Shown: positions 1,179 through 18,860 of the stretch, piece after piece
Layout: each line of letters starts with the position of its first letter
Numbering within the stretch: position 1 is the first letter of the stretch
Assembly (NCBI GenBank): GCA_964017235.1
Contig: OZ024936.1
Coordinates: 49,031,028 to 49,095,027 of the forward strand
Source of the DNA: Sabellastarte sp. h YS-2021
Taxonomy: Eukaryota > Annelida > Polychaeta > Sabellida > Sabellidae
Reading direction: 5' to 3'
DNA: 64,000 nucleotides
Position numbers and translations under genes: made by a program
The notes under the pieces: model-generated
What the model saw: the letters and a program-made list of their open reading frames with translations, nothing else
Database searches by the model: none
What the model was told of the DNA's origin: nothing

Positions 1179-2129
1179 CTAAGATGAAATGACCTTGGCA
1201 AAGGTGAGAGGGATAATGGAGGGAGCCACAGATGCGTTTTGCAAATACTGCCATACCGCCGAGCTCCGCCATAACCCGTGGGCCATAATGTGTTGGAGCT
1301 GAACATTATTATCAAATGCCATGGTAGCTCCAGATCTTCTGAAGGAATGAAACCCATGCCCTCTAATAGGAATGTGTAAATGGGTAAGGACGGTTTTCAG
1401 TGCCGCTCTGATGGTGGTATCTATAACCACGGTATAAGGAGAATTTTTGTGAACGAATAAGGGAGCTTGAGGATGGAGGGGTCTAGACTCAATCAATTCC
1501 TTGATAGCCCTGACAGGACATAGTCGGGGATTTTTAAGGTTTGGAATCTGAACAAAGTGATGGGCTGATCGATCTTGCAAGGTTTTTGTCCATTTCAACA
1601 GAATATGGGCCCCTGGATGAAGGAACAATACGTCCTGACGGAGAATGTGGCGGTATGGATCAAAAGCCGCCTTGGAATGGGGGGCAATGTTTGACATGCG
1701 CAGAAATGCAAAGAAGGCTATTAAAAAGGCAGCTCTGAAGAGGGGGGGGTCTGAGAGAATGTCGCAAGCCGCCGAAATAGAATGCATCATATTAATATCG
1801 AACACACCTCTGACTGTTGGGGAATAAGTGAAGTTAATTTTTATACTCCTAAGATACGCCCCCACCAGGGGGCTCTCTAAAGGGGCTATGTCCCAGTGAT
1901 AATTTTTTGCCATGAATCTTAAAGATGACATGTAATTTAACATCACCTTATAAGAAATCTGATTGATGAACAGATATTCAAGAAAAGTAATGATGGAGTG
2001 AATTGTGAATTCCAAGGGTAAATCCATAAATAACACAAATGCCAGGTAAGTGGAGAAGTGGACTCTATGAGAAGCCCTGGTGGATGGTCTGTATGCTATC
2101 CTGATTCTGTGAATTGCTGCTTCTGCCAA
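1179..2129 (-). CDS. Tyrosine recombinase of the Ngaro-like element
   Basis: A 316-residue frame, last of three, starting 36 bases after the RT frame. The catalytic block HGFHSFRRSGAT (HxxR), followed by the HGLW box and a Tyr in VWQYL, is the signature of phage-integrase-type recombinases. The fold-defining first Arg probably lies in FLRMSN near residue 143. In this order of elements the enzyme inserts a circular DNA copy and leaves no target-site duplication, which fits the lack of a clear duplication at the ends. Confidence 0.9.
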   Translation of the reverse strand: MAEAAIHRIRIAYRPSTRASHRVHFSTYLAFVLFMDLPLEFTIHSIITFLEYLFINQISYKVMLNYMSSLRFMAKNYHWDIAPLESPLVGAYLRSIKINFTYSPTVRGVFDINMMHSISAACDILSDPPLFRAAFLIAFFAFLRMSNIAPHSKAAFDPYRHILRQDVLFLHPGAHILLKWTKTLQDRSAHHFVQIPNLKNPRLCPVRAIKELIESRPLHPQAPLFVHKNSPYTVVIDTTIRAALKTVLTHLHIPIRGHGFHSFRRSGATMAFDNNVQLQHIMAHGLWRSSAVWQYLQNASVAPSIIPLTFAKVISS

Positions 2130-2164
2130 GGCATTGGAAGGAGCTCCCAGATTTCGATCTACAA

Positions 2165-4786
2165 TTATATATGCAAGGTCAAGTCAAAATAAGAGTGGAA
2201 AATCGGTTCCCAATGATAATTTTTGACTAAATGCTTCAATATATTTTCATCCACCAATTTATTAGAATGTATGCGAGATAAAGTATCAGCAATCCTATTT
2301 TCTTTACCAGCAACGTGTTCAATGATTAAATGAACATCATATATTGCTGTGTGAAGCCAAATATTCCTTATGCACAGTGCCAGAAAAGGATCCCTAGTCT
2401 TGCCATTTTTGACCACCTGGACAACGCTGTGATTGTCACAAAAAATTTTGACGCTTGAATGACGCCAGTGTTGACCCCAAACCCTCAAGGCCAACAAGAC
2501 ATTGAACATCTCCAGATGTACGATTGTTAGAACAAAGCCTGGTATCTCCCTCACTGGAGTCGCATATACACGATCTCTCCAGACTGCACCCAACCCAGTA
2601 AGAGATGCATCCAGGAATAGTGACTGGGTGTCGTCGACCGCGTTCTTTTCAATGAAGGTGATCCCATTGAATGAAGGGAGAAACTTAATAAACCAGTCTA
2701 TATCTGCGTGAAAGGCCTTGTTTAAATAAATTTTTTGTTTATGACTACCTTCCCTAAATGTGGCCAAAATCCTGTTAATAAACACTCGAGCCGGTTTCAC
2801 TATCTTCTGTATGTATAAAAGTTTCCCCATTAACGCCTGGAACTTGTTTTTAGACAGGTATTTTTGACCCCTGACCTTAACACACTCTGCATAAATATCC
2901 TGTAATTTTCCTTCGTTTATGGCCATTGTGTTACTATCAAGATCAATGTCAATGCCCAAATATGTGAGGCGTTTGGTGGGGGGGGTGAGCTTCGCAATAT
3001 TCAAGGGGAGGCCCAGCTCTTGCAACAGTGAACATAATTTATCAAAAGCTACGTCTGCTTTAATCTTAGGTAAAACTGCTACATAATCGTCTATGTAGCA
3101 GTGAAGATTACAATAATCTCTCATGAAGTAAGCTATGGAATCTGATAATAATTGGAACGAAGCTGTCCCGAAGATCCAGCCGAACGCGACCGACTTATCC
3201 AGATAAAAACTGCCCTCCCACTTAATCCCCAACTTAAGGGCATCGACTGGGTCTACAGGTAGATTCCTGAAGGCTCGGGCCACATCTATTTTAAACATAA
3301 CTGGGTCTTCCTTGATACTAACAATGTCTTTAACAAAGTCATCAATAGAAGGTAGTTTCAGTACTAAAGGAGTACCATCAAATTTTTCTTTAGTTACCTG
3401 ATCATTTAATGCATTACCCTGGGGGAATGAGAGGTCCATGATGACCCTTCTACTATCCCCATCCTTAGGGCGTGACATTAAAGGTGAACAGTGGAAGTCC
3501 TTGGAATCCACGCTATCAACAGGACCCAGCATGGCCCCCAAACTAATTTCTTTGTCCAAGTACTTCTGTATATCTTGTGGATACTGTCGAGCCGAAAAAT
3601 GATTGGATACCTCTTGGTTATGCAACCTATCTGGAGATATCAGGGACAGAGGGAAGCCAAATTTTATGTATTGAATTAATCTGTCATCTGGATAACCCTG
3701 CAATTGTCGCTCCCAAGCTGGGATATTCAGGCCTGATATCAAAGGAATTCTTGCCATGCGATAGTTAGGTAAGTTTGTATTCCTTATGATTTTTCCTATT
3801 CTTAAGCACTTATCTATAGAATCTATGGCTACAGGCAAACGATCCGGACCGATGAATCGAAAATCTGTACTGTCCAATGCCAGATGACCCACCTTCTTGG
3901 TTAGTATATTATAATCCGACAGATCGTGGTTGTTACGCGGATTAACCCGAACGCGCTCCCTAATACAAGTCCCCATCTTGTCCTCGACAATACCATCAGT
4001 CAATGGTTGTGATTCGACCTTTATACTTTCATCATCACTTTCTACATTAATATTTTCCATCTGATGTATAAGACCATCAATTACATACTGCATATATTTC
4101 GCATACGAGCAACCATGGCGCTCCCAAGCTATTTCTTCTCTCATATATTCCCAATAGGCTTGCTTTGCCTCCTGCTTCAAATCCTTTGTGATAAACTGGA
4201 ATTTTGAATTAGTTCGTATTAAAAAGTGACCCCTTCCTACGACTTCCATGTACTGTTCAATATCCCTGTGCAAAATTTGTAATCTTATATCTCCCTTTTC
4301 CTGAAACCACCAGAAGAAACCCTGGAGGTCAGATCCCTGTTCCCCATCTATATGCAATAGCTGCCGGTGGCGTTCGCCATGGTTACTCACAATGTGAAAC
4401 ACAGTGTATGGTATACTATCGAAGTTTACCATCTGATTCCCCCTCACTTTTGTTTGTTCTTCCCATGGCCCGTCCATGGAGATGGCAGCAAACGACAATT
4501 TCAATTCACCCCAGGCATTGAAAACCCGAAATTTTTTTAACTCTGGTGCCCGACCATCACTCCTGCCACCCCCCTGGACAGCCCCAGACAATATATCATG
4601 CTGTAAATATTTAGCATTGTTCATATTACCGTAATACATATTTTCACAACCATTATCATAAGCATTAGTATCATTTTTACACTCTTGCTTATTAACTAAA
4701 TGCATTCTGTTCATATAAACACCACTTAATTGTTCATTATTGTTATCTTCATTTAATTTAACTTTATTGTCTGTAACTTTATACAC
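2165..4786 (-). CDS. Reverse transcriptase-RNase H of the Ngaro-like element
   Basis: An 873-residue frame. About 400 residues of N-terminal sequence without a recognised domain precede the reverse transcriptase. The RT palm is marked by FKIDVARAFRNLPVDP and the active-site box YIDDYVAVLP. RNase H follows, with its acidic residues in LFLDASLTGLGAVW, HLEMFNVLLAL and FCDNHSVVQVV and the closing block NRIADTLSR. The frame ends shortly after RNase H, leaving no room for the methyltransferase of DIRS1 and PAT elements. The protein would copy element RNA to DNA. Confidence 0.9.
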   Translation of the reverse strand: MYKVTDNKVKLNEDNNNEQLSGVYMNRMHLVNKQECKNDTNAYDNGCENMYYGNMNNAKYLQHDILSGAVQGGGRSDGRAPELKKFRVFNAWGELKLSFAAISMDGPWEEQTKVRGNQMVNFDSIPYTVFHIVSNHGERHRQLLHIDGEQGSDLQGFFWWFQEKGDIRLQILHRDIEQYMEVVGRGHFLIRTNSKFQFITKDLKQEAKQAYWEYMREEIAWERHGCSYAKYMQYVIDGLIHQMENINVESDDESIKVESQPLTDGIVEDKMGTCIRERVRVNPRNNHDLSDYNILTKKVGHLALDSTDFRFIGPDRLPVAIDSIDKCLRIGKIIRNTNLPNYRMARIPLISGLNIPAWERQLQGYPDDRLIQYIKFGFPLSLISPDRLHNQEVSNHFSARQYPQDIQKYLDKEISLGAMLGPVDSVDSKDFHCSPLMSRPKDGDSRRVIMDLSFPQGNALNDQVTKEKFDGTPLVLKLPSIDDFVKDIVSIKEDPVMFKIDVARAFRNLPVDPVDALKLGIKWEGSFYLDKSVAFGWIFGTASFQLLSDSIAYFMRDYCNLHCYIDDYVAVLPKIKADVAFDKLCSLLQELGLPLNIAKLTPPTKRLTYLGIDIDLDSNTMAINEGKLQDIYAECVKVRGQKYLSKNKFQALMGKLLYIQKIVKPARVFINRILATFREGSHKQKIYLNKAFHADIDWFIKFLPSFNGITFIEKNAVDDTQSLFLDASLTGLGAVWRDRVYATPVREIPGFVLTIVHLEMFNVLLALRVWGQHWRHSSVKIFCDNHSVVQVVKNGKTRDPFLALCIRNIWLHTAIYDVHLIIEHVAGKENRIADTLSRIHSNKLVDENILKHLVKNYHWEPIFHSYFDLTLHI

Positions 4787-4834
4787 ATAGCTCTGTTTTG
4801 TCCTTGCAGGTTGTCCAGGTGATCCTGCTGGCTC

Positions 4835-6112
4835 CTACCTTGCTGACACTGCCTTGACCTCTTGTGATCTGACGTTCACACGAAAACTACATTTAAATTC
4901 TGGATGTGATGAAGTACGACCTTGCTTGGAACACAAGGAACAGATATGTCTGTAGATACCGTGGTTACCTTCATTGCTGCACGATCCCTCATTGTAAAAT
5001 TTGCAGATACGACTCTTCTGTCCGAAGGAAGACACATTCTGACTATTAATGACTGCAATTTGAGAGGAACTGACACGATTCAGGGCCCATTGTGTGGTAT
5101 CATGCCATTGAAGCCTACCTTCCTCAACCTCCGTCATTGAGACAGCCCAGGCGGCCCTCACGGCTGGCCACGGCAAGGCTACGGAATCGTTCAGTGCCAA
5201 CATCATCTGCCTGAGAACATGTCGCAGTAAGGTGTTATCGTCGATTTGCAAAGCATTATTGAGCTGACCTACCGCCCACTGTTGCAGGTTCATCTCATCA
5301 AACGCCGGTTTCTTGCTGTTTGAAGAGGACACAAACCCCTCATTGGGCCACCTCACCTCAGGTCTACCCACTGGCATATCTGTTGTATTATATCTACCAG
5401 ATTTTTTTCTATGTAGAAAGCCCTTACCTTGCAGAACATCATGGTGTGATTGTGTTTCAAACTGGGCCAGAAGGTCAGAAACCGTGGACGCCACGTGAGA
5501 CATTGCCCTCAACCGCTCCAAACTGGGGACAATCGCGTCCTTGTCGTAGCCTCGCCTCTGCTCCTGCTCTGCTGGTGGCTTATAATTCCCAGGATGTCTA
5601 CTGTCCCGTGACTGAGGATGCAGTGAAGTTGGTGCTGGCATTTCTTCCCTGGCTGGCCACTTATAAGCATTAAGTAGGCTCGCATGAGGAGTGAGATCTC
5701 CCAACTTCTGAGCGCCGGGCGATGTGACCTTGGTCTGTGGTAATTTGAAGGTCACATTGTCCCCAGGTCCCGACTGAGGTGATGATGCTGGGGTTGAGGT
5801 GATAGTATTGTTCCGCTCCAGTCTTTCCAACCGCTTCATAACTTCCGAGTTTGACTGCTCCAGCCGGGCCAACACACTCAGTACTGTGTGATCTACAGAA
5901 GTTGACGACGCTGCTACAGTATGGGGCGGACTTGCTACAGAAGCTAACATGGATTGACTATCGTCATTAAGGTACGAACCGTCTTTGTTAATCACCAAGT
6001 CCTTACTCTTGTCCTTCTTCGCAGCCCCATTCTTCTTATTCTTGCCTGGTACAGGAGTTGCCTTCTTTTTCTTAGTCGTAGTTAATGGTGACTTCTTACT
6101 AGAAGCAGGCAT
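4835..6112 (-). CDS. Gag-like protein of the Ngaro-like element
   Basis: A 425-residue frame, first of three. Its N-terminus is rich in Lys, Ser and Thr (low complexity, about residues 1-75). A short coiled-coil-like stretch (LARLEQSNSEVMKRLERLE) follows near residue 85. The C-terminus has a Cys/His cluster starting CKFYNEGSC, with further His and Cys pairs, of the type seen at the end of Gag in DIRS-order elements. It presumably packages element RNA. The next frame starts about 50 bases downstream. Confidence 0.75.
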   Translation of the reverse strand: MPASSKKSPLTTTKKKKATPVPGKNKKNGAAKKDKSKDLVINKDGSYLNDDSQSMLASVASPPHTVAASSTSVDHTVLSVLARLEQSNSEVMKRLERLERNNTITSTPASSPQSGPGDNVTFKLPQTKVTSPGAQKLGDLTPHASLLNAYKWPAREEMPAPTSLHPQSRDSRHPGNYKPPAEQEQRRGYDKDAIVPSLERLRAMSHVASTVSDLLAQFETQSHHDVLQGKGFLHRKKSGRYNTTDMPVGRPEVRWPNEGFVSSSNSKKPAFDEMNLQQWAVGQLNNALQIDDNTLLRHVLRQMMLALNDSVALPWPAVRAAWAVSMTEVEEGRLQWHDTTQWALNRVSSSQIAVINSQNVSSFGQKSRICKFYNEGSCSNEGNHGIYRHICSLCSKQGRTSSHPEFKCSFRVNVRSQEVKAVSAR

Positions 6113-6173
6113 TCTTTTGATTTAAAACCAACTAAAACAACTAAAACCATAAAATAATTCGATTTTTCATTCA

Positions 6174-9202: not shown

Positions 9203-10036
9203 GGAAGCTCTGAGCTGCCAAAATTTAGTTTATATTAAGTCTAATATATGACTTCGTATTTCCTATATACGACTTAACAACTTATATATTCGACTTACTA
9301 TCTTGTATATACTCATTAGTATCTTGTATATATGATTTATTAACTCATATATACGACTTAGTATCTCGAATATTCGACTTTTTAACTTGTATATACAACT
9401 TACTATCTTGTATATACAACTTAGTATCTTGTATATTTGACTTAATATCTCATATGTACCACTTAATAACTCATATTTGTGACTTACTAACTTGTATATA
9501 CGACTTAGTATCTCGTATTTATGACTTAGTATCTCTCATATACGACTTAGTAACTTGAATATTTCTCTTGTTAATTCACATATACAACAAAGCTTGTCAT
9601 ACATATGACTAAAGAACTTGTACATTCCACCTATTCAGTCAAATCTTCGACTTACTGTCTTGTATATGCCAGTTGTCATAAAACAAAAGAAAATGAATAG
9701 CCCATGAAGTTAAATGGCTTGTTTGACATCAATGATATGTTCTGTGAGTAAGATTTAGTTATTCATATAACTCAATGGAAATGTTAAACTAAGTGGTATA
9801 AACGAGATACTAAGTCATATATATGAGTTATTAAATCATATATACAAGACAGTAAGTCGTATATGAGAGTTATTAAGTTGTATATACAAGATACTAAGTT
9901 GTATATACAAGATACTAGGTGGTATATACTAGATACTAAGTCATATATATGATACAAGATACTAAGTGGTATATACAAGATACTAAGTTGTATATTCGAC
10001 TTAATACAAAATACATTTTGGCAGCTCAGAGCTTCC
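9203..10036. mobile_element. Foldback DNA element with inverted minisatellite arms
   Basis: Perfect 22-base inverted ends (starting ggaagctctgagctgcc) lie at 9203-9224 and 10015-10036. Inside, 21-base units close to gacttagtatcttgtatata run forward at about 9236-9680 and in reverse complement at about 9784-10012, with a unique spacer of about 100 bases. No transposase is seen, so this is a non-autonomous element. Confidence 0.75.
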
Positions 10037-11558: not shown

Positions 11559-14500
11559 TCAACTAACTGTGGAGTTTTTTCTTTCCTGGATGTAGTAAAA
11601 ATGTATTTTTTTCATTATTATCAATAAAATGTTAGCAGGCCACATTTGTTTTTCTTGGAAACCCAAAATTATGTCTTTACTTGAAAAATCTACTTCCCTC
11701 TTTGTGTTGGTTTTAATTTTCCTGGATAGATTCTCCCAGAATTTTCTTGTTGGTTTACATAGGCTGAAATGTACTAGAGTTTCTTCATTTTCATTGCATA
11801 CTTTACACACATTGTCTTGTATTATGCCCATTTTGAATTTTAAATTTGTGATTCCCAAGATTTGGTTTAAGATTCTATAATGGAGCCAAATTAAATAGTT
11901 GTCCTTTATAGTTTTGAAACAAATGAGGTAACATTTTTGCCACATTTTTCTGTAACTTCAATATTTGGTAGTGTTTCCCATTTATGCCTGACCTTATTGT
12001 CATTGAAGGATTTCTGTAGGAGTAAAGTTTTATAATATTCACTTGACCCTTTTGCGCCTTTGGAGAGCAAATGTAATGTTTTTGGATCGATGGGCCTTAT
12101 GCTTGTTGAGATATTGGATTTGCCTATAAAGTTGTTCACACATTGTCTAACCCTATGATATTCTAAGAAATTATAAGGTCCTGAGTATTTTACGATTAGG
12201 TCACAGTGTGTTAAAAATTTTCCTTGGGAGTCAATTAAATCAGATACAAAAATGATGCCCTTATTAAACTACTGTGGCAGAAAAAGTTCCATCTTTAAAA
12301 TCCTTGGATTATACCATATTGGGCTAGAAAGTTTCTTATTTTGTCCATCAGGTATGTTTGTGTCTAATAGACATGCCCAGGATAGCAAAGCCTCCCTCCA
12401 AACAATATTTGTTATATTTTGTGCAAGGTTTTCGGGCCAAGTTGAACCAAAATATTGTAGATTAAGAGGGTTTCGGATACAATGTATTCGTACAGTTTTC
12501 CACACCAGTGTTTCATTGCTCAACAACCTTTTGATCCAAAAAATTTGGAGACCGGTTATGAAGGTATCTATATTTACCATTCTAAGGCCTCCTTTTGAAT
12601 AGCTTTGTGTTAGTTTGGCTCTGCTTATCTTATCAGGTTTATATTCCCATACAAAAGAATAAAAGAGTTTATTCAAGGATTTTATAGCCTGGGAGCTTGG
12701 TCTGGGAATCGTCATGAATAATGTGACAAACTTTGGTAATATAAACGTTTTTAAAATGCATATTTTACCAATTGGGGTTAGGTTTCATTGCCTCTCTACA
12801 TCTGTTATTATAGTATTGAAGTTTGGCTTAGGTATATCAGGAAGATTTACTGAAAACGTTATACCAAGAACTCTAAAAGTATCTGTTCCCCACTTCAAGT
12901 TGGCCTGCGGACACATTTTTCTTGTGTTTCCCCTTTTGAACCAATCTATATTATTTGAGTTTTTTCTTTATTTACTTTTAAGCCAGAGTATGTGCAAAAT
13001 ATTTCGAGGACATTTAGCACTGATTGGAGAGAGCTTTCAGAATCAATTAGGAATAGTGTTGTGCCATCTGCAAACTACGTAATTTTTACATACTTTTTAT
13101 TTATTTTTAATCCTTTAATTGAGTCACATGTCTCTACTGAGAGTGTTAAAAATCGAGTATATTATAAAAAGATATGGAGCAATCAGGTCTCCTTGTCGGC
13201 ACCCCCTTTTAATACTGATTTGATTTGATAGGAAACCACATTGAAAAACTGGTGCAAAAATGTTTGTGTTAAAGGTAATTATCCACTTAATAAAGTTCTG
13301 TCAAAAACCTAGTCTGTTTAGAGCCTCAATTAGGAAATCCCATGACAGAAAATTGAATGCTTTTTCAAAATCAACTAGCATTAATAAACCAGGGATTTCA
13401 TTGTATTCTGCGAAGTGAATTGCGTCATATGTCAAGCGTGTACAGTCACTCATGTAGCGTCCACTTATAAAACCTGTCTTCTGCTCTGTAATTAAATACA
13501 TTAGCACCTTTTTCAGTGTGTTTACTATCGCTGACGAGCCTATTTAATATGCTACTGACAGAAGTGAAATGGGACGCCGGTTTTTCAAGTATTCTCTCAC
13601 TTTATTACCTTTTGGCAAGCATGAAATTATGCTGTGATGCATTGTAATTGACCTATTTTGTAGCTTTCATTCAGGGTTCTCAGAACAAAAATTTTCAATT
13701 TTTTCCAAAAAACTTTATAGAACTCTGATGGAAATCCATCTATCCCTGGGCTTTTATTGTGTTTCATACTCTGTAGAGATTGACTAATTTCATGTTCTGT
13801 AAGTTCCTCTTCAAGGGCACCTGCGTCTTGTTTGGATAGCTGATGATAACTATCAGAATTAATATTGCTGAAAAAGTCTTTCATACATCTACTTTCAGTT
13901 TTGTTAAATAATTTATAATAAAAATTGTGGATTTCTATTAGGATAATCTCTCGTTCAATAATGTTTTCACCCTTTTCATTTTTGATATTTTTAATGGTTT
14001 TCTCTATGTATCTATGGTTTTCTAACATACAAAAAAATTTTGATGATTTTTCTCCTTCTCCAAGCCATTTGGCTCTTGACCTAATTATTGAGCCTTTTAA
14101 TTTTTCACTTCTGATGTGTTCAACCTCTTTATTCTTTTTGTCTAGTAATTCCAAATCTCGTACTCCTTCTTGTTCAAGAGATTCAATTTCCTTTTTCAAA
14201 ATTGATTCTTTATTGTCCACTGATTTTATTTTATGTTATGAAACTTTTATCATTTCGCCTCTTATTTTTAGCAACAATACCTCGAAAAATTGACTGTCTG
14301 ATTTAGTGAAATCCGGGTTATCTTTGTTTGGAGCATATATGTTAATGAGCTTCACCTTTAGTTTTTTATTTATTAAAAGATTTAACCAAATAAGTTTCCC
14401 TTCATTATCTTTGAAGCTTTCCATTATTTCAAATTTGAAGTTGGATTTAATAAGTATTGCCACTCCATTGGCATTCGCCTTGGTACCACTTTAAAAAACA

Positions 14501-14670
14501 GTCTCCTTGCCAAAGATTTTTTATTGCGCTTAAATCGTTTTCCGTCAAATGTGTTTCTTGTAAACATAAAATATTGCCACCTAATGAATCCAAATAGTTT
14601 ATCACGTCAGCTCATTTCTTAAAATCTCTTAGGCTTTTGCAGATTGCAGACAACACTTTTATTTGACAGC
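11559..14670 (-). pseudogene. LINE ORF2: endonuclease-reverse transcriptase, broken
   Basis: The endonuclease begins near 14670 (SLRDFKK, then ILCLQETHLTEND) and continues with LINIYAPNKDNPDF near 14330. The RT region follows in separate frames: NKSPGIDGFPSEFYK (about 13730), QTGFISGRYMSDC and LVDFEKAFNFLSWDF (13500-13350), then GCRQGDLIAPYLF (about 13200). The usual FADD box appears as FADG, so a catalytic Asp is lost. The thumb and C-terminal parts (12715-12269 and 11945-11559) end in CKVCNENEETLVHFSLC, the Cys/His motif of L1-type ORF2. At least five frame changes or stops separate the pieces, so the gene is dead. In a live element it would nick DNA and copy RNA at the nick. Confidence 0.85.
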
Positions 14671-14699
14671 GTATTTTGCCTTCCATTTTTAATACATTT

Positions 14700-16290
14700 C
14701 TCTCTCCATCCGCACCCCATCTCAATTTTAACAGTTATACATTCGTTGATTTCTACTCTCATTGAGAAGGTATTTTTATAGGTTACTAAATTTGACTTGC
14801 TTGGATTTTGGATTTTAATCAACTGGTAATAGTTGAAAACTCCTAAATGTATAACAAATAAAACAACTACAAAATCAACGTTAATAGAAAAGAACCGAGT
14901 GTAACTAGGGTTCAAAGCATGAATATTTAACATTACAGCTTTAAACAAGTTCAAAATTTCTCTCAACAATCTGAGATCTAAAAGTTTTGTAGTCATGGTC
15001 TTCAGCAGTTATACAATCCTTTTCCCTTATCAAATACTGGCATATCGTATATTTATATTCTAAGTAGCTAAGAATAAAAAATGATTTAGTACACTGTAAC
15101 AACAGTTCTTTTATGCCATATTTAGAGTTGCTGCTGTTATTTAGATCTAAGATACAAGTTGCAAAGGCCTGACGATTATACTTTGGTGTATATTCATTTT
15201 CCATAATTGAAGAAATCTAACAATGACATCTAGTTATCACTTATACAGGTTATATCGGATTAGTATATCAACAAAAAACACCTCATCAGCCATCTGGATA
15301 CCTATGCATCATCACATAGAAAAAGTAGTACACAGTTGGTCTTCATAGAAGTTAATACAGGTTCCCACAAACTTTTGACAACTGGATTCAAGGTCTTTTC
15401 AAAGATTTTATTCAATTTTCGCTAAATTCAAGGACTTTCTAGGCCTTGAAGATGCAGCAAGTTTTACATGTTTGTGTTTGTTCACCTTATAAATACAAAT
15501 TAAATTATTCCTTAATGTGCAGACAAATTGCCATTACTGAACAAGAATTATTTTTGTATTATTTAGGCAGTTTATGTGAATATTTCAAACTGACTGTAAC
15601 TGACAAGCCTTTATTCCCGTACTATCTCCCACCAATGGGGGGACTGCCCTGGTGTAAGAGAAAGTTCAGGTTAGCTTAATATTGAAAGCTTTATATGTGT
15701 AATTTCCATATAACTTTTTTCCTAAACATTCAACAGATAATTTTTTTCTTTTCCTTTTTTTAAATGTTCCCAGGAACAATTAAAATTACATATTGTTGTA
15801 TGAAATTAGATTACCTACTTTTAACAAAATATGAAATTAGTTGTACATAGGAAGTTTTTATGAATGTTTCAATTATCCCAGCAGACAAGTATTAATTCCC
15901 TTACTACCTCCTACCAATGGGTGTAAGAGGAAGTTTAGGATAGCTTGTTGTGGAGGACATTGTCCTTACACTTTCAATATATCCATTGTTTTCTATACAC
16001 AAATTGATAAGAGTACCATTTCTAACATTCCTAGGAACATTTAAGATGACAGGAGTACAAACTTCTTTATTTTAATAAATGACAAGAGTATGGCAGTAAC
16101 ATATTAGTTGGAATTACAGTTGTGATATAAATTTTACTTTAACAATTCAAAAGACAAATTTTACAATTCACATATTTTCATAAGATATACAGCGGTCGAT
16201 GCTAGATTATTACTTTCTAATACAAAGTTATATTTTAATGATCATACTATGTTAAGAACTAGAAATTCAACTATTATCTTATCATGGTTA
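14700..16290. other. Non-coding gap inside the LINE
   Basis: No coding signal links the SGNH segment and ORF2. Two related pieces of about 80 bases (15600-15680 and 15870-15960), sharing actanctcc-caccaatggg and a following gtaagag, lie about 270 bases apart. A stretch near 15360-15450 is rich in ttcaagg words. The interval is probably later insertions. Confidence 0.45.
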
Positions 16291-16299
16291 TACTCTTAA

Positions 16300-16900
16300 A
16301 TTGATAATTTTTCTCTTTTTATTACGTATGAAAGTTGACCAAGAAAATATTTCTGCATCACTTTCGACCCTTCTTGTGATAGATGTAAACCATCCCAATC
16401 AAAGTAGTTTTCCTTCGGGGATCCATATTTCATAAGGGGTTTATGACTATAAATGAACTACACATTAGATTCCTTACACAATTTAGATTCCTTGCTCTAT
16501 TTACCTCAATGAGGTAATCTTTGTTTTGTTTAAAGTCGAACGGTCTGGGAAGGATTCCTAAAACCATGATAAATATGTTTGGGGTCTTGGTTTTAATAAT
16601 CTCCAATAGTTGTTCAACTATTCTGTCAACATGGGGTTGTAGTATAATGCAGCAAGGTTATTTCTTTCCCTTTATTTTCTTGTTTTGATTTCTTATACCA
16701 CTGCCAAATTGATTTGGGCATTAAGTCATTTGTTCCCATTGGTAACATAATCACCTTATATTTTTCTAGCGGAATATTTGGTATTTTTTCTTGAATTTTA
16801 GATATTGTTGCCCCTGGAATTGACAGTGGTAGGGCTCGTGATAAATGACGAAATTTTTGCCTATTGAGTCAGTAATGAAGATTCCCTTCATTTCTTCAAA
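16300..16900 (-). pseudogene. SGNH-hydrolase-like segment in the LINE
   Basis: Reverse-strand translation gives, in order, GIFITDSIGKNF (block I position, Asp-Ser), KVIMLPMGTNDLMP (block III, GTND), FIMVLGILPRP, and FDWDGLHLSQEGSK (block V, with Asp and His). Spacing and order match SGNH/GDSL esterases of about 190 residues. Frame changes and a stop interrupt it. SGNH-type esterase domains are known from ORF1 of CR1/L2-type LINEs and from Ngaro elements; finding one in an L1/Tx1-like element is less usual. A run resembling a splice acceptor (tctgttttctttctag) precedes it, so a separate exon origin is possible. Confidence 0.65.
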
Positions 16901-17059
16901 CTCTGTTCCTTTCAAATCTAGAAAGAAAACAGATAAAAGTACATGTTATTGGTGATTTTTTTTGTATAGATAATGGACCAAGATTACTAATATTGGTGTT
17001 ATGGTACACAACTTGTATGAATACATAACTTAAATATTGCTAGCATTACGGAGCAAATT

Positions 17060-17634: not shown

Positions 17635-18860
17635 TTACATAACAATATTTCTTCTCACATTCTCTAAAATATTTCCCATAATGTTGCCTTTTGTGGGCCA
17701 CTTTACTGGTAGCCATGCATCTGGATGATCAATTGACATACCAATCCCAAATGTGTTGACGTATGGGTTGGCTTCCGCAATTCTTTTTTCACCTATGCTT
17801 TTAGCACTTCCAAGGCATGTTTTGCTCAAACTTTGCTTGTATACCAGGAAGGATTAATTCATGTACTTGACTGTGCCATATGCCATATGTCACTTTTTTC
17901 CCAAGTCTCTTTTGGAGCTTCAGATTTTTTTAATCATAATTGCTTTTGCACTCTCCAGGTCCCTAAACAATTTTGCTTTGGTGCACATTATAAACTGTTG
18001 TAGGTTACATTTTCAAATGTAAATGTTGTAAGATAATGATTGGAGAAGGGAGAGTTCTTTGTAAAGAAAAGAACAATGTTTTCTTTTGCTGGCGTCCACA
18101 CCTTTTTGGGGTTTAAACAGGTTGGTAGCTCTTCCAGATTGTGTTGGTTGTAAAATTTGCCATCAATTTCAATATTGTCCCACTTATATCTCGATTTAAC
18201 TGGGTGTTCAGGTGAATTTAAGCCTCTTGCTTGCTTCAGGATTGGCCAAACCTCTTTCCTGTGTTTCACCCATTCTGCTGGCAGGTCTTCTTGTACAGTC
18301 ATATTGCATAAGTGAAGACTGTGTTTATTGTTCCCTACTCGATTCCTTATTGTCAATGAGTTGAAGGTGACTAAAATGGGTCTAGGATGTTTGTTTTGTT
18401 TCTGTGGAAGGCGATACCTGGTGTCAATGTCAGACTTTGTAACTATAATGGAAAATTTGTCTAAAGAGTCTATGATGTACTGGCTTAAATTATCCATGTT
18501 TACATCTTCTGGAATTCTGAAAAACCTTGGGTTTCTTTTTTTAGGTTTGCTTCCAGACAGTTATTCCTTTCCGCTTCCAAATCTAGTTGTCTTTTCACTT
18601 GTTGGATTTCAGCTGACTGGTTGTTTAATTTTGTTGTGTATTCCGCGAACAATGTTTTAAGTTCCTGCTTTAGTTTAAGTGTGTTTTGCTTCCAGCTGTT
18701 CTTTGTTTCTTCGAACTGAGCCTGTAATGTATTATTAACTTTCATCTCCCATACAGATAATTTATCTTCCACAATTTTTTCAATTTTGTTCACCAAAAGA
18801 GGACTGAGGTCTGGTGATGGTGGTGAGAATTCACATTTATGCTTTTTTACTTTCTTCTGT
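17635..18860 (-). pseudogene. LINE ORF1: coiled coil-RRM-CTD-NADAR, broken
   Basis: From the right, KCEFSPPSPDLSPLL leads into a coiled coil of about 85 residues (18796-18500). After a frame change comes KKRNPRFFRIPEDVNMD and the RRM with RPILVTFNSLTIRNRV. The L1 ORF1 C-terminal domain follows (TVQEDLPAEWVKHRKEVWP, then KSRYKWDNIEIDGK). The same frame continues into a NADAR domain: NIVLFFTKNSPFSNHYL and FTFENVTYNS near 18010, then in a shifted frame QFIMCTKAKLFRDLESAKA, and IAEANPYVNTFGIGMSIDHP with WPTKGNIMGNILENVRR near 17680. NADAR (YbiA/DUF1768) enzymes are glycosidases acting on ADP-ribose-type or riboflavin-pathway compounds. Stops and shifts show the copy is dead. The ORF1 identity is firm and the NADAR call strong; any role in retrotransposition is unknown. 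Confidence 0.8.

Follow-up and report, generated by a model that had tools for sequence, protein, structure and literature searches.

NADAR domains in the ORF1 proteins of L1-type and other LINEs of a sabellid annelid genome

The ORF1 protein of LINE-1 is not known to carry a NADAR domain. A NADAR-like ORF1 has been described for Tx1 LINE families of Crassostrea gigas in Repbase, and the passages on these families call its role unclear and suggest processing of the RNA intermediate (PMC12477816). The fusion of NADAR to a LINE ORF1 is therefore not new as such. In a literature search covering part of the matching papers, a link between NADAR and transposons appeared only in PMC12477816, which was also the only match to the phrase 'NADAR domain'; the same search gave no match for the scale of the fusion, a second ORF2 lineage, evidence on active site and selection, or an SGNH partner.

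NADARs are reported to be the only tested family of hydrolases that reversed ADP-ribosylation of the guanosine base in RNA (PMC11833690), and they also reverse guanine ADP-ribosylation on DNA, the Phytophthora enzyme hydrolysing guanine-ADP-ribose (PMC11543638). The role of NADARs in animals is described as open in one account (PMC11125620), and CARP-1, a clam enzyme, is reported to ADP-ribosylate guanine N2 in DNA and to be guanine-specific (PMC11209040). That CR1 and L2 LINEs have traded entire ORF1s has already been published, in a paper that places the esterase ORF1s of CR1 and L2 only in vertebrate subgroups (PMC4120745).

The window element and its closest relatives

The window is the whole stretch of 64,000 nucleotides that was analysed, from the genome of Sabellastarte sp. 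h YS-2021, where it falls within contig C14. The COX1 frame of this genome is open under genetic codes 5, 9 and 4 and closed under the vertebrate one. Relatives were searched in the same genome (1.79 Gb), and two of them, L029 and L015, served as tblastn queries for the parts listed here.

18521..18835, minus strand: ORF1 piece 1, coiled coil, in frame -1; 76% amino-acid identity over 105 aa in tblastn with the L029 ORF1
18003..18542, minus strand: ORF1 piece 2, RRM and CTD followed by the beginning of NADAR, in frame -3; tblastn with the L029 ORF1
17641..18000, minus strand: ORF1 piece 3, remaining NADAR, in frame -2 with stops, its middle in frame -1 at 17929-17819
16918..16919, minus strand: AG of a 3' splice-acceptor-like site before the SGNH segment, with a pyrimidine tract
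16302..16927, minus strand: SGNH/GDSL esterase segment, in frames -1 and -3; tblastn with the L029 SGNH ORF, E 7e-67
14281..14716, minus strand: ORF2 endonuclease pieces; tblastn with the L029 ORF2, E 1e-55
11598..14346, minus strand: frame-shifted pieces of the ORF2 linker, RT and C-terminus; tblastn with the L029 and L015 ORF2, E 4e-156 and 2e-154

The whole ORF1 of the window (18835-17641, minus strand) is frameshifted and has the order coiled coil, RRM, CTD, NADAR. An earlier sequence-only reading had placed a complete NADAR behind the RRM and CTD of an L1-type ORF1. The peptides that it named are all present on the minus strand, and tblastn with the L029 ORF1 covers 18542-17641 with the NADAR in order from start to end. 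The E values for the window ORF1 are 7e-121, 5e-36 and 2e-9, the latter two belonging to the NADAR remainder (18000-17641 and 17929-17819). The observation is thereby confirmed, with two corrections: the copy has stops and changes frame several times, which makes it a pseudogene, and its NADAR part starts near 18060-18075. Where the frame breaks near 18000, the codons around E43 have been lost.

Taken by themselves the window pieces are too weak in Pfam to decide the matter. The NADAR end alone (17853-17635) scores 19.3 bits (E 0.0015) against Pfam NADAR, below the cut-off of 35.1, and the RRM-CTD piece alone obtains no score; the case for a fusion therefore rests on the relatives. An AlphaFold single-sequence fold of 18560-17988 had a mean pLDDT of 32 and was discarded.

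Judged by its homologies, the window element is a three-ORF LINE of L1 type, with a NADAR-ORF1, a predicted SGNH esterase ORF and a predicted endonuclease-RT ORF2. The SGNH segment (16927-16302) is absent from the sequence-only reading, and the ORF2 pieces (14716-11598) were not tied to the element there.

Two other features of the window were recorded. Long open frames of 334, 889 (RVT_1, RVT_3) and 428 aa occupy 1179-6121 on the minus strand, an element that we take to be DIRS/Ngaro-like. A 21-bp tandem repeat forms two arrays at 9233-9995, and its translation is open over about 90-110 aa.

The RRM-CTD-NADAR piece of the window, used as a query, gave 1067 candidates, of which 150 were scored as matches. 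Seven genome matches have 73-74% amino-acid identity to ORF1 piece 2, from residue 2 or 6 to residue 188 of 190, and five of the seven lie in open frames of 422 aa. Three relatives, L029 to L031, were fetched. The ORF1 is open over 422 aa in L029 and L030 and split between two frames in L031; L030 and L031 are both 98.7% identical to L029, over 5257 and 2934 bp respectively. At the DNA level identity to the window is 76.5-76.7% in ORF1 and 79.6-80.3% in the SGNH segment, and the ORF2 values are 75.5-78.6% for L029 and 73.4% for a short part of L030. The element order in this family is ORF1, SGNH ORF (open over 218-221 aa), ORF2. The ORFs of window and relatives align throughout while the spacers between them are alignable only in short stretches of at most 83 bp, which suggests coding constraint in the window family. 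Between the window and L029, dN/dS is 0.11 for the coiled coil (105 codons) and 0.155 for the RRM-CTD piece (180 codons).

Pfam Lipase_GDSL_2 is found in the SGNH ORFs of L029 and L034 at 56.3 and 38.5 bits (cut-off 32.9; E 7.6e-15 for L029), and the L029 ORF matches PDB 4C1B, 'ORF1-encoded protein', with E 3e-4. The SGNH/GDSL domain of the esterase-bearing (type IV) LINE ORF1s is thus present, but not within ORF1 itself: in L029, L030 and L034 it occupies an open frame of its own after the ORF1 stop codon. When SGNH matches were paired with the best 40 of the 150 ORF1 matches, at least 18 of 54 (55 rows less one that overlaps) had an ORF1 match upstream on the same strand within 8 kb, in seven cases at 1446-1464 bp; one ORF1 is common to three of the 18. 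The pyrimidine tract and AG occur at the same place and in the same codon phase in the window, L029 and L034. Because this acceptor-like site is shared in phase, and the open SGNH frame of L029 has no ATG ahead of block I, the SGNH segment is perhaps a spliced exon. L034 makes splicing less likely, since in its SGNH frame an ATG stands upstream of the acceptor-like site. A search for a matching donor found none; a GT near the ORF1 end is common to the window and L029 but stands in the wrong phase, and it is not among the top 12 scores in L034.

Copies, active site and proposed role of the NADAR-ORF1

A Pfam NADAR search of the genome gave 2705 first-look candidates, and the 150 that were scored are all above the cut-off. 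The first 38 of these are standalone NADARs of 167-179 aa; 54 of the remaining 112 lie in open frames that reach 380 aa or more. A query limited to the RRM-CTD of L015 gave 1132 candidates, of which 150 were scored as matches. Eleven of its matches were fetched, a non-random choice in which nine lie outside the lists from the Pfam NADAR and window-piece searches. NADAR is present in 10 of the 11, although L128 breaks off within it and L133 ends early; at L135, the eleventh, another element begins before the NADAR position is reached. The 12 ORF1 loci read from the window-piece search all have NADAR behind the CTD. No NADAR-less ORF1 of the clade was found among the matches read, which are a minority of the list and in two of the searches were selected for NADAR. 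NADAR follows the CTD in 29 different ORF1 sequences and in four more (L032, L035, L039 and L040). The sequence-only reading had expected a true fusion to recur with NADAR directly behind the CTD, and many copies in the window's own genome have it there in one open frame; copies of the family without NADAR, which it had named as counter-evidence, were not encountered in the 10 matches that could be followed to that position.

Three observations concern NADARs in other settings. The standalone NADAR ORFs (L001-L008 and L136, 167-179 aa) belong to a multi-copy repeat with tandem units of ~165 bp behind them, and the 2.5 kb upstream of L001 hold no ORF longer than 97 aa; this repeat, 36-43% identical to the ORF1 NADARs, was considered as their possible source and set aside. 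At L134:3-2192 a SCAN/gag-like frame is open into a LINE ORF1-NADAR over 730 aa in all, which probably reflects insertion of a LINE into a gag gene. The ORF1 alignment, used as a query against viral contigs, matched at least 80 loci; the matches start at query residue 273 or later, which is NADAR, except at L081, where the match spans 188-457 in a 323-aa protein with no recognised LINE ORF1.

A profile of 19 ORF1s matches the NADAR 8BAU (E 2e-35) and YbiA 2B3W (E 1e-23) in PDB, and the same profile matches LINE-1 ORF1p (2YKP/2YKO) with E 3e-12 over profile positions 79-234, from coiled coil to CTD. The 19-ORF1 profile thus has the coiled coil, one RRM and CTD that define a type II (L1-type) ORF1. 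A Pfam scan of four single ORF1s at E ≤0.1 listed no ORF1-type family. Pfam NADAR scores 136-150 bits in nine ORF1s (147-150 in four intact ones) and 122 in L042.

Catalytic and ADP-ribose-contact residues were taken from PMC11543638 and mapped by alignment onto the 29 ORF1s. E43 and W89 are present in 29 of 29, K50 in 27 (replaced by L in L042 and by A in L129) and K75 in 25. Position Y84 is F or Y in 26 and position R79 is R or K in 22 (K in 18), with neither K nor R in 7. In the readable copies E125 and D130 are kept in 28 of 28 and W133 in 24 of 28, with F or Y in the other four. This census leaves aside the near-copies L013, L014, L017-L022, L030, L031 and L130, the early-ending L133, and L032, L035, L039 and L040; L128 enters it without the last part of NADAR, and in L027 only the sequence from the end of the CTD onwards belongs to the LINE. 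The ORF1 NADAR is assigned to the YbiA family because of the glutamate at the E125 position, and the relatives combine homology over the full domain with E125, E43 and K50.

The copies were further expected, in the sequence-only reading, to be under purifying selection, and in five of six closer pairs the NADAR dN/dS is 0.06-0.13: 0.10 for L009/L010 and for L025/L026, 0.08 for L024/L028, 0.06 for L128/L011 (79 codons) and 0.13 for L126/L012. The sixth, the young pair L133/L011, has 0.39. In the closer pairs apart from L009/L010 and L133/L011, dS is at least 1.77 and imprecise. A comparison of 210 pairs kept 22 with NADAR pS <0.72, of which 19 are deep; these 19 have NADAR dN/dS of 0.21-0.47 with dS near saturation, and three further pairs with saturated NADAR dS yield no ratio. 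In all 19 deep pairs NADAR dN is below both RRM-CTD dN and coiled-coil dN, and in L025/L026 and L024/L028 RRM-CTD dN is below NADAR dN. Purifying selection seems to maintain the NADAR in the LINE ORF1.

The window element is best explained as a defunct L1/Tx1-type LINE. Its chaperone ORF1, with coiled coil, RRM and CTD, carries a NADAR that, on the reading towards which we lean, strips ADP-ribose from guanine. We infer the catalysis, its substrate and the host opponent. The ORF1p would coat the element RNA, and the NADAR would travel with the ribonucleoprotein. There it would free guanine of ADP-ribose, on the RNA or cDNA of the element or on its target DNA, and so undo a host ADP-ribosylation that might otherwise block translation or reverse transcription. 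Evasion of such a defence had been offered as speculation in the sequence-only reading. To our knowledge, no LINE has been reported to undergo ADP-ribosylation of guanine. A search of the genome for a DarT-like transferase found none, its control matching in one genome; a Scabin-like search gave no match, but neither did its control. Were the host a bivalve, the clam enzyme CARP-1 would be a natural candidate for the opposing transferase.

It is possible, though on present evidence doubtful, that the NADAR is catalytic and acts on another substrate, such as ADP-ribose attached to proteins (ORF1p/ORF2p or host factors), signals consisting of soluble ADP-ribose, or RNA-repair by-products. The discussion of viral NADARs in PMC9503650 argues that they act on macromolecular or soluble ADP-ribose derivatives, and PMC11543638, where it deals with E. 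coli YbiA, describes an N-glycosidase for riboflavin intermediates. The RNA-binding fusion partner, however, points to a nucleic-acid substrate, and in the assays given in PMC11833690 the tested NADARs were active on guanosine-base RNA adducts and inactive on phosphate-end and 2'-OH adducts. An unlikely reading is that of a non-catalytic module binding ADP-ribose, PAR or RNA, which would help RNP assembly or target PARP-marked DNA breaks at target sites. Binding alone would explain why ADP-ribose contact residues are kept besides the catalytic ones, and the absence of K50 in 2 of 29 agrees with it, but E43 and E125 are both kept in every readable copy of the 29.

Two ORF2 lineages and the mobile unit

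The L029 ORF2 has Exo_endo_phos (E 3.9e-17) and RVT_1 (E 1.1e-26) in Pfam, and the best PDB matches of the L015 ORF2 are LINE-1 ORF2p (E 2e-56) and R2 (E 4e-26). The APE endonuclease and L1-like RT of an L1-type ORF2 are found in the window family, including L029, and in L015 and L025-L027. We assume for these L1-type elements the name Tx1. The account in PMC12477816 uses the same name. In a second type (L011-L013, L016-L022 and L028) the best PDB match of ORF2 is still LINE-1 ORF2p, with E 4e-25, and in L012 and L016 the ORF2 N-terminus has an NPGP motif (ESNPGP, ELNPGP) before the endonuclease. We tentatively take the second type to be CR1/L2-like (Jockey group) and the motif to be 2A-like. 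The label L1-type given in the sequence-only reading thus holds for ORF1, by the profile match to LINE-1 ORF1p, and for the window ORF2; the same ORF1 design also stands beside the very different second ORF2. The ORF1-ORF2 spacers of L015, L025 and L027 are about 1.8-2.9 kb long and contain no ORF of 120 aa.

RT identity is 56-59% within the L1-type elements L015, L025, L026 and L029 (87% for L025/L026); among L012, L013, L016 and L028 of the second type it is 60-70%, and between the types it falls to 22-28%. The ORF1s are related otherwise. Between the types, L029 aside, RRM-CTDs are 42-57% and NADARs 50-58% identical; for L029 the corresponding values are 25-28% and 36-40% against the second type, and 21-29% and 35-38% against the remaining members of the L1-type. 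The RRM-CTD of L015 is 56 and 57% identical to those of L016 and L028, and 43 and 29% to those of L025 and L029. For ORF1, the identities listed for L013 are those of its near-copy L011. Because the NADAR-ORF1s are 42-58% identical (window family aside) while the RTs joined to them share only 22-28%, these comparisons indicate at least one transfer of ORF1 from one ORF2 lineage to another, as a module exchange.

Slow ORF1 evolution from one ancient origin, with no exchange, is a very improbable account of this pattern. An ORF1 tree of eight elements also fits with the L1-type ORF1s as one group, which it does not reject (p-AU 0.163). Within the L1-type, however, RTs are 56-59% identical and RRM-CTDs 21-44% (without the close pair L025/L026, 87 and 72%), and between the types RT identity is 22-28% but the L015 RRM-CTD is 46-57% identical to the second type; one clock cannot fit both.

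The NADAR is part of the mobile unit. A 6.28-kb unit of L016 is common to L018, L019 and L021 at 99.4-99.5%, is shared over 5.7 kb with L017 and in pieces with L020 and L022, and has different flanks in its copies. Direct, target-site-like repeats measure about 11 bp at L016 and 10-13 bp at L019; those at L018 and L021 are only about 6 bp and may be due to chance. The L015 junction of ORF1 end, spacer and ORF2 start (2501 bp) recurs at full length and 100% identity at C14:59872019, and a further match, at C4:176864760, spans 2060 bp with 98% identity. The NADAR-ORF1 design occurs in many LINE families of the genome, some of them recently active. A NADAR that stems from a host exon or pseudogene and merely adjoins one insertion, the other counter-evidence named in the sequence-only reading, can be dismissed: the window copy does lie in several broken frames, and the genome has a standalone NADAR repeat, but single open frames run from coiled coil to NADAR at many sites and the NADAR lies inside replicated units.

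On a broader scale we suggest, tentatively, that an animal host may mark transposon nucleic acid with guanine ADP-ribose, and that a shared NADAR-ORF1 eraser could have spread between at least two LINE lineages as a counter-defence. Young LINE families of this genome have an RNA-binding protein that includes a selectively maintained NADAR with the active site kept, and this ORF1 has apparently been swapped between lineages; a possible use of nucleic-acid ADP-ribosylation against animal transposons thereby becomes directly testable.

Comparison with described systems

The closest counterparts are the C. gigas Tx1 LINEs, likewise with a YbiA-family NADAR in a LINE ORF1 and likened here from their description in PMC12477816 only. 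Compared with the note on them in that account, the present genome adds the second ORF2 lineage, the active-site census, selection, recent replicated copies and the extra SGNH ORF. A Gypsy element of Ectocarpus, as described in the same source, is also a retrotransposon with NADAR, but it is an LTR element with the domain in Pol and not in an RNA-binding ORF1 (PMC12477816). The type II ORF1p of LINE-1 (2YKO/2YKP) has the coiled coil, RRM and CTD in common with the ORF1s studied here (profile E 3e-12). The NADAR of Phytophthora nicotianae (8BAU) and E. coli YbiA (2B3W) resemble the ORF1 domain in homology and catalytic residues and are not fused to a LINE ORF1. The esterase 4C1B, which we take to be the ORF1-encoded esterase of zebrafish ZfL2-1, is likewise of SGNH/GDSL type; here the domain is a separate ORF behind the NADAR-ORF1 of an L1-type element. 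The reticulate ORF1s of the Jockey superfamily, for which the relevant section of PMC4120745 sets CR1 against L2, are alike in the swap of a whole ORF1, which in the annelid would have taken place between an L1-type and an RT-distant lineage, with the NADAR aboard.
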